A stretch of DNA of 64,000 bases from Fuerstiella sp. (GTDB lineage Bacteria > Planctomycetota > Planctomycetia > Planctomycetales > Planctomycetaceae): assembly GCA_022447225.1 (NCBI GenBank), contig JAKVAZ010000002.1, forward strand, positions 124,001-188,000. Reading direction: 5' to 3'. This document shows positions 11,343-53,171 of the stretch, one piece after another (position 1 is the first letter of the stretch; each line of letters begins with the position of its first letter). Both the position numbers and the translations under genes were made by a program. The notes beneath the pieces were generated by a model. It was given only the letters and a program-made list of their open reading frames with translations, had not been told where the DNA came from and ran no database searches.

Positions 11343-12848
11343 TCAGGAGTCTGAAAGCTGAGATTCAGCGACATGAATCGCTTTGAGCAAAGCCCGGGCT
11401 TTGTTCAGTGTTTCTTTGTATTCGAGTTCGGGGACACTGTCGGCGACGATACCGGCACCTGCCTGCACGTAAATGACACCGTTCCGGATCACCAGAGTTC
11501 GAAGTGCGATGCAGGTATCCATATTTCCCGTGAAATCAATATAGCCCACGGCGCCCGCATACGGACCTCGTTTGTGAGGTTCAATTTCATCGATAATTTC
11601 CATTGCCCGAACTTTAGGAGCTCCGGAAACAGTGCCGGCCGGCAAACCGGCTCGCAGTGCCTCAATGGCCGTCATGCCGGGCTTCAATCGTCCTGTGACG
11701 CTGGATGTAATATGCATCACATGACTGTAGCGTTCGACCACCATGACGTCAGCAAGTTCCACCGTACCGAATTCCGCGACTCGCCCCACGTCGTTGCGCG
11801 CCAGGTCAATCAGCATGACATGTTCGGCTCGTTCTTTGGGATCTGCAAGCAGTTCTTCGGCAAGTTGCCGATCTTCCTGACTGGTGCGTCCCCGGCGACG
11901 TGTGCCGGCCAGCGGGCGGATTGTCGTTTCTCCGTCTTCGACGCGAACCATGATCTCCGGTGAACTACCAACCAGATGGACGTCCGGTGTCTGCAGCAGA
12001 AACATGAACGGGCTTGGATTCACCATGCGCAAAGCACGATAAACGTCGATGGGAGCGGCCTGGCTCTCACGAGTAAGACGCTGACCGATCACCACCTGAA
12101 ATACGTCACCCGCCCGAATATATTCCCGGCACGATTCCACGGCCGTCTCGAACTCGGGTTGTGAAAAATTCGATACGGACGCAATTTCCGGTTCGACGGT
12201 CAGGTCGATGTCGTTGAGCGGTATTCCGCCGGGATCGTGACTCAGGCGATGGCACAACTTCTGCAGCCTGCGTTCTGCATCATCACGAGCTTCCTGAAGT
12301 GGGGTTCCCTGGGTATCGGCAAGAGCAACGGCGAGGACCGTTTTGCTGATGTGATCGAAGACAACCATGCTGTCGTACAGAGAAAAACAGAGGTCCGGCA
12401 GTTCTCGATCATCTTCGGGAACATCAGGCAGGTGCTCCGTATAACGTACAACATCGTAGCTGGCGAATCCGACAGCCCCTCCTGAGAATCGCGGCAGGCC
12501 AGGAACGTGGACGCAGGAAAATTCCGCCAGCAGCCGGTCAAGTTCACTCAGCGGATCATCACTTTTCCATTCTTCAAGTGTGCCGTCTTTGCGCCGAATC
12601 TGCACGTCCTGGCCCCAGGCGGACACTGTCAGAAAGGGGTCGCTGCCAACAAAACTGTAACGACCGATTTTTTCTCCACCCACCACACTTTCAAACAGGA
12701 AAGACCACTTTCCTTCGCTCAATCGTTGCCAGGCGGTCACCGGTGTCAGGGAATCGGAAGTCAATTGACGAAAGACGGGCACAAGCCGGCCCTGCTGAGC
12801 ATACTTGGCGAAAGCGTCATGCGGTGGATGGTGGGTAACGGACATCAT
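11343..12848 (-). CDS. trpE: Anthranilate synthase component I
   Basis: 501 residues from ATG 12848 ([29 protein letters not shown], the usual TrpE beginning). GGA lies 5 bases upstream, and in-frame extension to 12983 would add 45 residues unlike the family. The C-terminal chorismate-binding domain is complete: [35 protein letters not shown], the [10 protein letters not shown] motif, [15 protein letters not shown] and [20 protein letters not shown]. It converts chorismate and glutamine-derived ammonia to anthranilate, the first step of tryptophan synthesis. No trpG is adjacent. The leader lacks a run of Trp codons, so I see no attenuator. Confidence 0.93.
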
Positions 12849-33056: not shown

Positions 33057-33086
33057 AAAAAGCACGGTCTTCTGACCGTGCTTTTT
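33057..33086 (-). terminator. Rho-independent terminator of tRNA-Leu
   Basis: Stem AAAAAGCACGGTC / GACCGTGCTTTTT with loop of 4 bases (33070-33073), directly abutting the tRNA 3' end; T-run on the minus strand. Also symmetric enough to work from the plus strand. Confidence 0.9.
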
Positions 33087-33170
33087 GCCCCGGAGAGGAG
33101 TCGAACCTCCACGCCCATTACGGGCACATGAACCTGAATCATGCGCGTCTGCCAATTCCGCCACCGGGGC
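33086..33170 (-). tRNA. tRNA-Leu (anticodon CAG)
   Basis: 85 bases. Acceptor stem GCCCCGG/CCGGGGC, D-arm GCGGAATTGGCAGACGC, anticodon stem CATGA/TCATG around loop TTCAGGT (anticodon CAG, reads CTG), a long variable arm (GTGCCCGTAATGGGCGT, the class II feature of tRNA-Leu) and T-arm GGAGGTTCGACTCCTC. Discriminator A; CCA is not encoded. It is the only tRNA seen in the window and has its own terminator. Confidence 0.96.
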
Positions 33171-48892: not shown

Positions 48893-50467
48893 ATGTCCTC
48901 ACGATCGGACGAATTTTCACCCGATGAGGATCTGCCGGTGGACGGTACCCGTTCCGTTCTGCTGAACGTTGCGTCATGCAGACGTGCTCGTCGGTTACGG
49001 CCGGTCTGGGTGTCGTCCGTGGGGCGGACTTTCAGTCGACTGCGACTGTTGATAACCCGGACGATGCCGGAATGGGCTCGGCAGAATAGACAGCAGCTGG
49101 TGACTGCGTCGATCAGCTTCGTTTTGCATGTGGTGACTGCGATCCTGATGGCGCTGTGGGTGATGCCGGCGGATCCCACGCGATGGATGCCGGCACTGCT
49201 GGCAGTACCGGTTCCAAAGGAAGACGTGCAGGCTGTGGAGCTGGTCGAAGTCATTCAGCCGGAACTGCTTGACAAACAGGAACTGGAAAACACGATGCAG
49301 CAGGTTCTTGAAGTGGTTGATGATACAACCACAGATCTTGCTGCCTTTGATGCCGAAAAAAAATTCGAACTGGATCTGGAGCCTATAGAGCGGGACCTCG
49401 CCTTGCTCTCCCGACTCGGAGAATTCGGAGGGCGTTCTTCATTCGGTAAACAGGCGGCGATCCGGAAATACGGTGGAACTGCAGAGAGTGAACGCGCGGT
49501 CAATCTGGGACTGATGTGGCTTCGTAAGATTCAGCAGTCCGACGGGTCCTGGAGTTTTCGTCATCCAGGCGAGGAGGCGAAACGCGGATATTTACGTTCA
49601 ACGAGAATGGGCTCAACGTCTCTGGCGTTGCTGTGTTTTATGGGAGCCGGGCATACTCATCTTTCCGGTGGTGAGTATCGTTCCGTTGTCTCGGAAGGGC
49701 TTGACTATCTGATTGAAAATGCTGCCGGAGATCGAACGTCTGCCGATATGCGCGGTGACTACGAAGGCAATTCCGGGATGTATGTTCAGGGGCTGGCAAC
49801 CATTTGTCTGTGCGAGGCTTATGTGCTGGAACCGAATGATGCCCGATTAAAGAAAATGGCTCGCAGAGCCATTAGGTTTATTGAGAAGACACAGAACAAA
49901 CGCGGTGGCGGCTGGCGTTACGAACCGGGCGAGCCTGGCGACACGTCGGTAGTTGGATGGCAGGTAATGGCTCTGCAAAGTGCAAAGGCAGGCGGTATTT
50001 CTGTGTCGAGACAAACCGGCCGGAGGGTGAAGCAGTTTCTTGACTCTGTCCAGACAAATAACGGTGAACGCTACAAGTACATGCCGGGTGGCAGTGCCTC
50101 ACCTGCAATGACATCAGTGGGGCTGTTGTGCCGGATGTACCTGGGCTGGCGACGTGATCATTCTTCACTGCGACAAGGTGTCGATTATCTGTCAGCACTG
50201 GGGCCGCACGGGCAGGATATGTACTACAATTACTATGCAACCCAGGTCATTCATCACTGGGGCGGTAGCCAGTGGCGCAGGTGGAATGCAGTGATGAGGG
50301 AACAGCTGGTGTCACGACAGATTACAGAGGGGCCTGCGGCCGGCAGCTGGATGCCCCGCGATCCGCACGCCGGTTCCGGTGGACAGATTTATGAAACAGC
50401 GCTGAGTCTGTTGACACTTGAAATTTACTACCGGCACCTGCCAATCTACCGACAGATAGAGGACTGA
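48893..50467 (+). CDS. Membrane-anchored squalene-cyclase-like (prenyltransferase-repeat) protein
   Basis: 524 residues. A single membrane helix lies at about 68-95 (ASISFVLHVVTAILMALWVM), then a variable acidic linker (about 105-195) and an alpha/alpha-barrel repeat region (about 200-520) with QW-like repeats such as GLMWLRKIQQSDGSWSF, AIRFIEKTQNKRGGGWRYEPG and GVDYLSALGPHGQDMYYNYYATQVIHHWGG. The aspartate-rich DxDD motif of true squalene-hopene cyclases is not present; the matching position reads EPGDTSVVGWQVMAL. So it is unlikely to cyclise squalene. Related planctomycete proteins are common and of unknown role, possibly extracytoplasmic binding or a protease-like scaffold. Start ATG 48893 is the longest one; no strong ribosome site. 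Confidence 0.75.
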   Translation: MSSRSDEFSPDEDLPVDGTRSVLLNVASCRRARRLRPVWVSSVGRTFSRLRLLITRTMPEWARQNRQQLVTASISFVLHVVTAILMALWVMPADPTRWMPALLAVPVPKEDVQAVELVEVIQPELLDKQELENTMQQVLEVVDDTTTDLAAFDAEKKFELDLEPIERDLALLSRLGEFGGRSSFGKQAAIRKYGGTAESERAVNLGLMWLRKIQQSDGSWSFRHPGEEAKRGYLRSTRMGSTSLALLCFMGAGHTHLSGGEYRSVVSEGLDYLIENAAGDRTSADMRGDYEGNSGMYVQGLATICLCEAYVLEPNDARLKKMARRAIRFIEKTQNKRGGGWRYEPGEPGDTSVVGWQVMALQSAKAGGISVSRQTGRRVKQFLDSVQTNNGERYKYMPGGSASPAMTSVGLLCRMYLGWRRDHSSLRQGVDYLSALGPHGQDMYYNYYATQVIHHWGGSQWRRWNAVMREQLVSRQITEGPAAGSWMPRDPHAGSGGQIYETALSLLTLEIYYRHLPIYRQIED

Positions 50468-50616: not shown

Positions 50617-52179
<1,563 letters not shown>

Positions 52180-52275
52180 GGATGCCTCCTGAGTGCCTGA
52201 ACATTTGACCGTGCTGTGCCAGTGCGGAACCGAACTGAACAACCAGCTTCTTCGGTTGTCTGAATCAATATCAAT

Positions 52276-52305
52276 AAAAAAAACCTGAGACCGTCGGGTC
52301 ACAGG
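52276..52305 (-). terminator. Leader terminator of the leuA attenuator
   Basis: Minus strand: CCTGTGACC (52305-52297), loop CGAC, GGTCTCAGG (52292-52284), one T-T mismatch in the 9-bp stem, then eight T (52283-52276). It lies between the leader peptide and the leuA start, about 100 bases before the ATG. A copy of GTCTCAGG at 52342-52335 can pair with the same left arm and so prevent the terminator. Confidence 0.8.
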
Positions 52306-52347
52306 CTGGTAGGAGTGATTTCACTGCGGACAGACCTGAGACTCGCT

Positions 52348-52425
52348 TCATGCCGGAAGGACCGGTAGATTCAGGTTGTTCAACAGATTGTGGTTCACGG
52401 GACCGGATTCCAGTTGAATCTTCAT
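52348..52425 (-). CDS. leuL: leuA leader peptide (leucine attenuator)
   Basis: 25 codons plus stop, ATG 52425 to TGA 52348. Six leucines, most in the second half: HNLLNNLNLPVLPA (Leu at 5, 14, 15, 18, 20, 23). The Leu18 CTG codon sits inside ACCTGA (52376-52371), which can pair with TCAGGT (52339-52334), six bases after the stop. Ribosome stalling at Leu codons would then free that segment to pair with the terminator arm. No good ribosome site is seen before the ATG. Identification rests on architecture and composition, not on any known homologue. Confidence 0.7.
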   Translation of the reverse strand: MKIQLESGPVNHNLLNNLNLPVLPA

Positions 52426-52444
52426 GGAGTGGCTGACTAATTGC

Positions 52445-52473
52445 ACTCTATCCATGCGTCCAAGTGACTTCAA
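52445..52473 (-). promoter_or_regulatory. Sigma-70-type promoter for leuA leader
   Basis: Minus strand TTGAAG (52473-52468), exactly 17 bases, TAGAGT (52450-52445): 4/6 and 4/6 to consensus. The expected start near 52438 is about 13 bases before the leader-peptide ATG. Confidence 0.45.
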
Positions 52474-52592
52474 GGGCTGTTCCGTTGGCAAAAGGTTGTG
52501 GGATCCGGGAATTTCTGTCATTCGGCATTGAAGTCAAAACTGACAAAGGTTGACATCGACACCGGCACGATTTCTTTCTTTCAGGTTCAGTG

Positions 52593-53171
52593 ATGCCTGC
52601 TCCGTTCATTTTGATCGATGGTTACAATCTGATGCATGCGATCGGGTTTGCGCGGAGAAGTTACGGGCCAGGTGATCTTGAGGTCTGTCGGAATCGGCTG
52701 TTGCAACAACTCGTCCTGCGTCTCAACTCAGCTGCCGTCGATCGTACAACAGTGGTTTTCGATGCCTTCGGTTCTGACGATGATTCCGGCCGACACCAGA
52801 AGTGCCAGGGAGTCAGTGTGATTTACGCACCGGCAGGAACCGACGCAGACAGTGAAATGGAACGGCTCATTGCAGATCACAGCTCTCCCAGGCAGCTGAT
52901 GGTGGTATCCAGTGATCATCGTCTTCATCGGGCAGCCCGTCGCCGCAAAGCGAATGTCATTGACAGTCACGATTTTTGGAACAGTCTGGATCCGGAATCC
53001 GTTTCCCTGCTGAAGCGGGACCGTCCTGCAGAGACGAGAAACGAGACCGCCTTCCGCTTTGACGAATTTGTTGATACCGAAGTGATAGTCGACGAAGCGG
53101 TGATGCCGGCGGACGATGACGTCTTTGATTCGGACTATTTGTCTGACCTGGAATCAGAGTTCGATGACTGA
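52593..53171 (+). CDS. NYN-domain (PIN-like) ribonuclease family protein
   Basis: 192 residues from ATG 52593; the preceding GTG at 52590 is an alternative. NYN/YacP-like domain at about 5-130: ILIDGYNLMHAIG with the first catalytic Asp, VVFDAFGSDDDSG, DADSEMERLIADHS and VVSSDHRLHRAARRRKANVIDSHDF. These Asp residues would bind the metal for RNA cleavage. A very acidic tail follows (ADDDVFDSDYLSDLESEFDD). YacP-type proteins (Rae1 in Bacillus) act in ribosome-associated mRNA decay. Stands alone, divergent from leuA. Confidence 0.82.
   Translation: MPAPFILIDGYNLMHAIGFARRSYGPGDLEVCRNRLLQQLVLRLNSAAVDRTTVVFDAFGSDDDSGRHQKCQGVSVIYAPAGTDADSEMERLIADHSSPRQLMVVSSDHRLHRAARRRKANVIDSHDFWNSLDPESVSLLKRDRPAETRNETAFRFDEFVDTEVIVDEAVMPADDDVFDSDYLSDLESEFDD

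Follow-up and report, generated by a model that had tools for sequence, protein, structure and literature searches.

The closest described counterpart of the element reported here is leuL of Escherichia coli, a 28-codon leader of the leuABCD operon with CUA among its control codons. In Actinobacteria, leuA is preceded by the LEU element, which forms a pseudoknot and has no reported terminator (Seliverstov et al., 2005; PMC1262725). Its Leu codons pair with the Shine-Dalgarno box of leuA, and the effect of Leu-codon mutation did not fit classical attenuation (PMC1262725). A preliminary description of the DNA analysed here had counted the Actinobacteria among the hosts of classical leuA attenuators, a view that this terminator-less element contradicts. 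For the Planctomycetes, a 2016 paper reported short leader ORFs before genes and no amino-acid attenuator (PMC4833913). The preliminary description knew of no planctomycete case, which agrees with Rfam and with the searchable papers, the literature coverage being incomplete. Full-text searches, with partial coverage of the literature, retrieved no planctomycete leu attenuator, and a prior prediction in the survey of Lopatovskaya et al. (2010) is possible. Here, we describe a leader before a planctomycete leuA that would act as a classical ribosome-mediated transcription attenuator, adjusting the expression of leuA to how much charged tRNA-Leu is available; we give this reading a probability of about 0.93.

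The site is located in a 64,000-nucleotide stretch of DNA (the window, referring to the whole stretch analysed) from a 5.43-Mb genome near Fuerstiella. Among the named genomes of the species collection, its nearest relative is a metagenome-assembled genome of Fuerstiella, with a LeuA identity of 96%. The assignment of the gene to 2-isopropylmalate synthase was clear, and its product has the allosteric LeuA_dimer domain. No same-strand gene follows leuA, the next long ORF being on the opposite strand. The divergent neighbour (52590-53171, plus strand) encodes a YacP-like NYN-domain protein, and the convergent neighbour (48893-50467, plus strand) showed a weak match to a squalene-hopene-cyclase-like domain. 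The window has one tRNA gene, for tRNA-Leu (anticodon CAG), at 33086-33170 on the minus strand. The coordinates of the features are listed in Table 1.

Table 1. Features of the leuA leader region, in window coordinates.
Feature	Position	Strand	Remarks
-35 element TTGAAG	52468..52473	-	relatives carry TTGAC[C/G]
-10 element TAGAGT	52445..52450	-	17 nt from the -35 element
Longer leader reading from ATG, 25 codons, 6 Leu	52348..52425	-	preliminary description; N-terminal part unconserved
Leader ORF, best-supported start GTG: (M)NHNLLNNLNLPVLPA, 16 codons, 5 Leu	52348..52398	-	stop TGA 52350-52348; frame common to the nearest relative, L005
Segment 1 (AACCTGAATCTA, Leu codons)	52366..52377	-	protector 1:2 with segment 2
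Segment 2 (GAGTCTCAGGTC)	52333..52344	-	partner is segment 1 or segment 3
Segment 3 (GCCTGTGACC)	52297..52306	-	antiterminator 2:3 or terminator 3:4
Segment 4 (GGTCTCAGG)	52284..52292	-	terminator 3' arm
Terminator U-tract (T8)	52276..52283	-	
AGGAGG, leuA ribosome binding site	52185..52190	-	
leuA, 2-isopropylmalate synthase, 520 aa, putatively regulated gene	50617..52179	-	NF002086 and TIGR00973 above cut-off; HMGL-like and LeuA_dimer

The whole element, comprising the promoter, the Leu-rich leader ORF, the competing segments and the terminator with its U-tract of eight, occupies positions 52473-52276 of the minus strand, and the leader and terminator stand ∼97 nt before the leuA start. When the sequence was re-checked, all of the elements listed in the preliminary description were found where it had placed them. 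These were the promoter with its 17-nt spacing, the motif AACCTGA (from 52377) within the Leu codons and able to pair with segment 2 beyond the stop, an exact 9-mer repeat, the terminator stem followed by T8, and an antiterminator (2:3) that overlaps the 5' arm of the terminator, so that only one of the two can form. The 1:2/2:3/3:4 set is complete, and its reading as a classical attenuator was supported by class-wide conservation. In the window, the terminator stem has an energy of about -13.6 kcal/mol, the 2:3 pairing about -12 kcal/mol and the 1:2 pairing about -9 to -10 kcal/mol. The weak points of this species are a single mismatch (U-U) in the terminator stem and a promoter below the family consensus. 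The folding energy of the whole window leader was ordinary (z -0.5), single-sequence folding being uninformative, and a generic promoter and terminator scan listed neither the promoter nor the terminator of the leuA leader; conservation is the decisive evidence.

The Leu-rich frame that had been claimed for the leader was borne out, together with its TGA stop at 52348, whereas the start at ATG 52425, with its 25 codons and six Leu, probably was not. The nearest relative, L005 (96% LeuA identity), has no ATG at the position equivalent to 52425 and carries upstream indels relative to the window, and both sequences have the GTG (52398) and the 16-codon frame (VNHNLLNNLNLPVLPA, 5 Leu). In other Fuerstiella-like genomes the leaders are 15-16 codons long. 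Given the shared GTG, the absence of the ATG in L005 and this usual length, GTG 52398 rather than ATG 52425 is probably the start of the leader, and this would change both its length and its Leu count. Only 3 nt separate the end of the stop codon from segment 2, most of which would therefore be covered by a ribosome that had reached the stop. An equally Leu-rich leader ORF was found in none of 100 dinucleotide shuffles of this leader region. A Shine-Dalgarno sequence precedes 21 of the 95 leaders (7 in shuffles), and most leaders are without an obvious one. In 10 of the 72 leaders with a called promoter (L009, L078, L088 and others), the -10 element ends 6-9 nt before the start codon; the leader mRNA would therefore begin at or beside the AUG, as a leaderless message.

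Conservation was analysed in the leuA upstream regions of ∼70 relatives of the same class and in 80 loci with organism names. The set was extended by 40 leuA loci of organisms that do not belong to the class and by 20 loci from other families within it. Under a strict automatic criterion, which required a Leu-rich leader with a strong hairpin and a U-tract behind it, the arrangement was present before leuA in 62 of 70 members of the Planctomycetia; several of the eight failures were truncated, masked or had a short U-tract. All nine sampled families contained it, counting the Gemmataceae and a Pirellula genome of family f9 (L121), and the named genomes with the arrangement range from Fuerstiella to Aquisphaera and Gemmata. 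A typical leader of the relatives has ∼20 codons, as in MQIHNLLSLSLLLNLLTQARS (L023), with a TAG stop inside segment 2 (AGGTCCTAGGT), and a typical segment 3 is CCCTGAGACC, while segment 4 (GGTCTCAGGG) is followed by at least six T. The stop codon usually lies inside segment 2 and is mostly TAG (TAG 63, TGA 23 and TAA 6 over 92 leaders). The frame, Leu codons, stop position, pairings, terminator and promoter were kept class-wide; the lack of a conserved leader frame or stems in relatives, named beforehand as the observation that would speak against the attenuator, was not borne out by this comparison.

Some lineages outside the class also have similar leaders before leuA (L229, L246, L247, L252, L253, L262, L263 and L265), and the covariance model matched L262 (E 8e-9) and L247 (E 2e-4). 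This model performed well for the Pirellulales and Isosphaeraceae and weakly for distant classes, where most low-scoring matches resemble ordinary terminators; the distant loci were therefore judged by inspection anchored on leuA. The arrangement was absent before leuA of Thermogutta (L126) and in the Brocadia loci, which have no terminator of note upstream of leuA. Four Pirellulales-type loci carry a tRNA-Leu gene (anticodon TAA) on the leuA strand, downstream of leuA (L118:3582-3668, L120:3594-3679, L102:4192-4278 and L121:4285-4372); the distance is ∼100 nt in two of these loci, and the two genes may form a leucine-related pair. Three loci labelled Gammaproteobacteria (L117, L135 and L136) share a different hairpin before leuA (CCCCGCACC...GGTAGCGGGG, with a T-tract), with an MLLLLL-type ORF before leuA in two of them; these may represent a distinct leu attenuator that is likewise uncatalogued, or the contigs may be mis-binned.

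The same parts could be read as a constitutive terminator or the end of a small RNA, with the Leu-rich ORF incidental or coding for a functional small membrane peptide, as intergenic terminators are common and short Leu-rich peptides look like membrane segments. The codon usage of the leaders has no role under this reading. Leu makes up 35% of the residues over 92 leaders, and the rare codon CUA is enriched 19-fold: CTA accounts for 63 of 401 leader Leu codons (15.7%), against 17 of 2029 (0.8%) within leuA at these loci (p 5e-36). This enrichment is the signature expected of control codons. The peptide sequence apart from Leu is poorly conserved, which speaks against a membrane peptide. Against 100 dinucleotide shuffles per region, the leader score was higher than 95 or more in 58 of 64 regions, and higher than all 100 for the window site. 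The promoter pattern TTGA[C/A]-N15-19-TAnnnT occurs within 90 nt upstream of 66 of the 95 leaders, compared with 1.4 in shuffles, and its spacing is exactly 17 nt in 63 of 72.

Cognate pairing likewise exceeded what a peptide would need. Segments 2 and 3 paired with a mean of -15.6 kcal/mol in their own leader and -12.6 ± 0.27 kcal/mol with permuted partners (z -11.0 overall), and segments 1 and 2 with -25.0 against -21.3 ± 0.37 kcal/mol (z -10.1 overall). These permuted-partner tests do not fully remove relatedness; within the family alone, z was -6.7 for 2:3 and -7.0 for 1:2. A synonymous redraw of the leader codons weakened the 1:2 pairing from -25.0 to -21.8 ± 0.38 kcal/mol, and the pairing is therefore no by-product of the peptide. 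In a 50-sequence alignment, the terminator columns were 97% paired with two-sided changes in 8 of 11 pairs, and the 2:3 columns were 87% paired with 22 two-sided cells, against 10.0 in shuffles. The 1:2 columns were 78% paired, with two-sided changes in three pairs, no more than in shuffles.

The arrangement was also restricted to leuA. The covariance model (R1) found a single site in the host genome, the leuA leader (E 6e-14; next best 9.6), and the same pipeline detected no such leader upstream of ilvB, trpE or hisG in ∼30 relatives each. In the window itself, no strong terminator or Trp leader was observed upstream of trpE (11373-12758, minus strand). A constitutive terminator gives no role to this restriction, nor to a stop codon fixed in or beside segment 2, and we consider such an element very improbable. 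The features by which a classical attenuator is recognised were found instead: a leader with Leu codons, an intrinsic terminator before the first gene, an exclusive 2:3 pairing, and a 1:2 protector within the control codons with a stop that lets the terminating ribosome cover segment 2, the covariation of the 1:2 columns being weak.

Control by the leader at the level of translation, or via Rho, in place of intrinsic termination has been considered for the terminator-less leader peptides of Actinobacteria, and it would suit the weak U-tracts that follow the hairpin in the Gemmataceae and in some Isosphaeraceae. In nine of ten further Gemmataceae genomes, a Leu-containing leader and hairpin were present with weaker U-tracts. 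In L297-L305 of this family, a very stable hairpin follows the leader (CGGCCCCGGAAC...GTTCCGGGGCCG) and the T-tracts are mostly broken (TTTCTGTTT), as though termination, or some other read-out, were different in these genomes. In the window genome and nearly all of its family, however, 6-8 U follow the hairpin, which stands ∼20-200 nt before leuA (97 nt in the window genome), and we give this alternative an even slimmer chance than the constitutive terminator. Just as remote is a ligand- or protein-binding element (a Leu riboswitch, a T-box or a repressor-bound leader) that switches the terminator with the ORF secondary, as the antiterminator and terminator alone would fit it too, but no Rfam T-box or riboswitch model matched the window or 31 related loci, and the leader outside the stems and coding frame varies in sequence and length.

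For the attenuator, the parts, their conservation, the cognate pairing, the rare-codon enrichment and the thermodynamic consistency are present in the sequence itself. What we infer is where transcription starts, that ribosomes translate the leader and stall on it, and that termination and a response to leucine occur. Transcription would start just upstream of the 16-codon Leu-rich leader. When Leu-tRNA is plentiful, the ribosome would reach the stop codon and cover segment 2, leaving segment 3 free to pair with segment 4, and RNA polymerase would terminate at the U-tract. When Leu-tRNA is scarce, the ribosome would stall on the Leu codons and cover segment 1, so that segments 2 and 3 could pair ahead of the synthesis of segment 4; no terminator would form and leuA would be transcribed. 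In the case of no translation, the 1:2 protector could favour termination.

The mechanism was checked by folding the nascent RNA of 92 leaders minus the part covered by the ribosome. With the best Leu codon occupied by the ribosome, the 2:3 antiterminator was dominant in 84 of the 92 leaders; this number fell to 15 when the ribosome was placed at the stop and was 38 in its absence. All 92 leaders formed the terminator when the ribosome was at the stop. For the window, the leader was taken from ATG 52425; its antiterminator values were 0.8 when stalled, 0.35 at the stop and 0.8 with no ribosome, and its terminator value at the stop was 0.8. Because of the no-ribosome value, the prediction for the naked RNA in this species is an equilibrium in favour of the antiterminator, the main thermodynamic blemish of the model.

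Planctomycetes have internal membranes, and Gemmata has a nucleus-like body. A 2008 review called the coupling of transcription and translation in planctomycetes unknown (PMC2478661). Since attenuation of this kind requires translation of the nascent RNA, an attenuator spread across the class, including the Gemmataceae, argues for coupling, as indirect evidence from sequence. We see an even chance that the leaders form an undescribed leuA attenuator family, ancestral to the Planctomycetia including the Gemmataceae and with partly leaderless leader ORFs, in which ribosomes would closely follow RNA polymerase. If true, this close following would extend to planctomycetes that have been said to separate transcription from translation. 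Classical amino-acid attenuation would also be extended to a phylum for which no described case was found, the large alignment could seed an Rfam family, and the class-wide attenuator offers a ready reporter for testing coupling.

Compared with known systems, the kind of attenuator is textbook, and its phylum-wide occurrence appears undescribed within the searchable papers. No Rfam family matched the window site or the 31 related loci, permissive thresholds giving only chance matches. The trpL, hisL and ilvL leaders, and the ilvB leaders of Corynebacterium and Staphylococcus, share the same logic of stalling at control codons and differ in the amino acid and gene. The terminator ∼97 nt upstream of leuA speaks against an actinobacterial LEU element; in contrast to that element, the planctomycete site has a terminator and the full 1:2/2:3/3:4 set. 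The search with the Rfam Leu-leader model that had been proposed as a check came out negative: RF00512 matched neither the window nor the 31 related loci, whereas it scored 145.8 bits on E. coli leuL, and the planctomycete covariance model did not match E. coli leuL, leaving no sequence-structure match in either direction. The planctomycete leaders also differ in having mostly 15-25 codons, a stop usually inside segment 2 and a leuA with no following same-strand gene. They resemble leuL in the short leader of Leu codons including the rare CUA, which recalls the control codons of E. coli, and in the competing antiterminator and terminator before leuA. As RF00512 finds E. coli leuL and not the planctomycete loci, the planctomycete leuA leader is one that would work like leuL yet stands outside its Rfam family.
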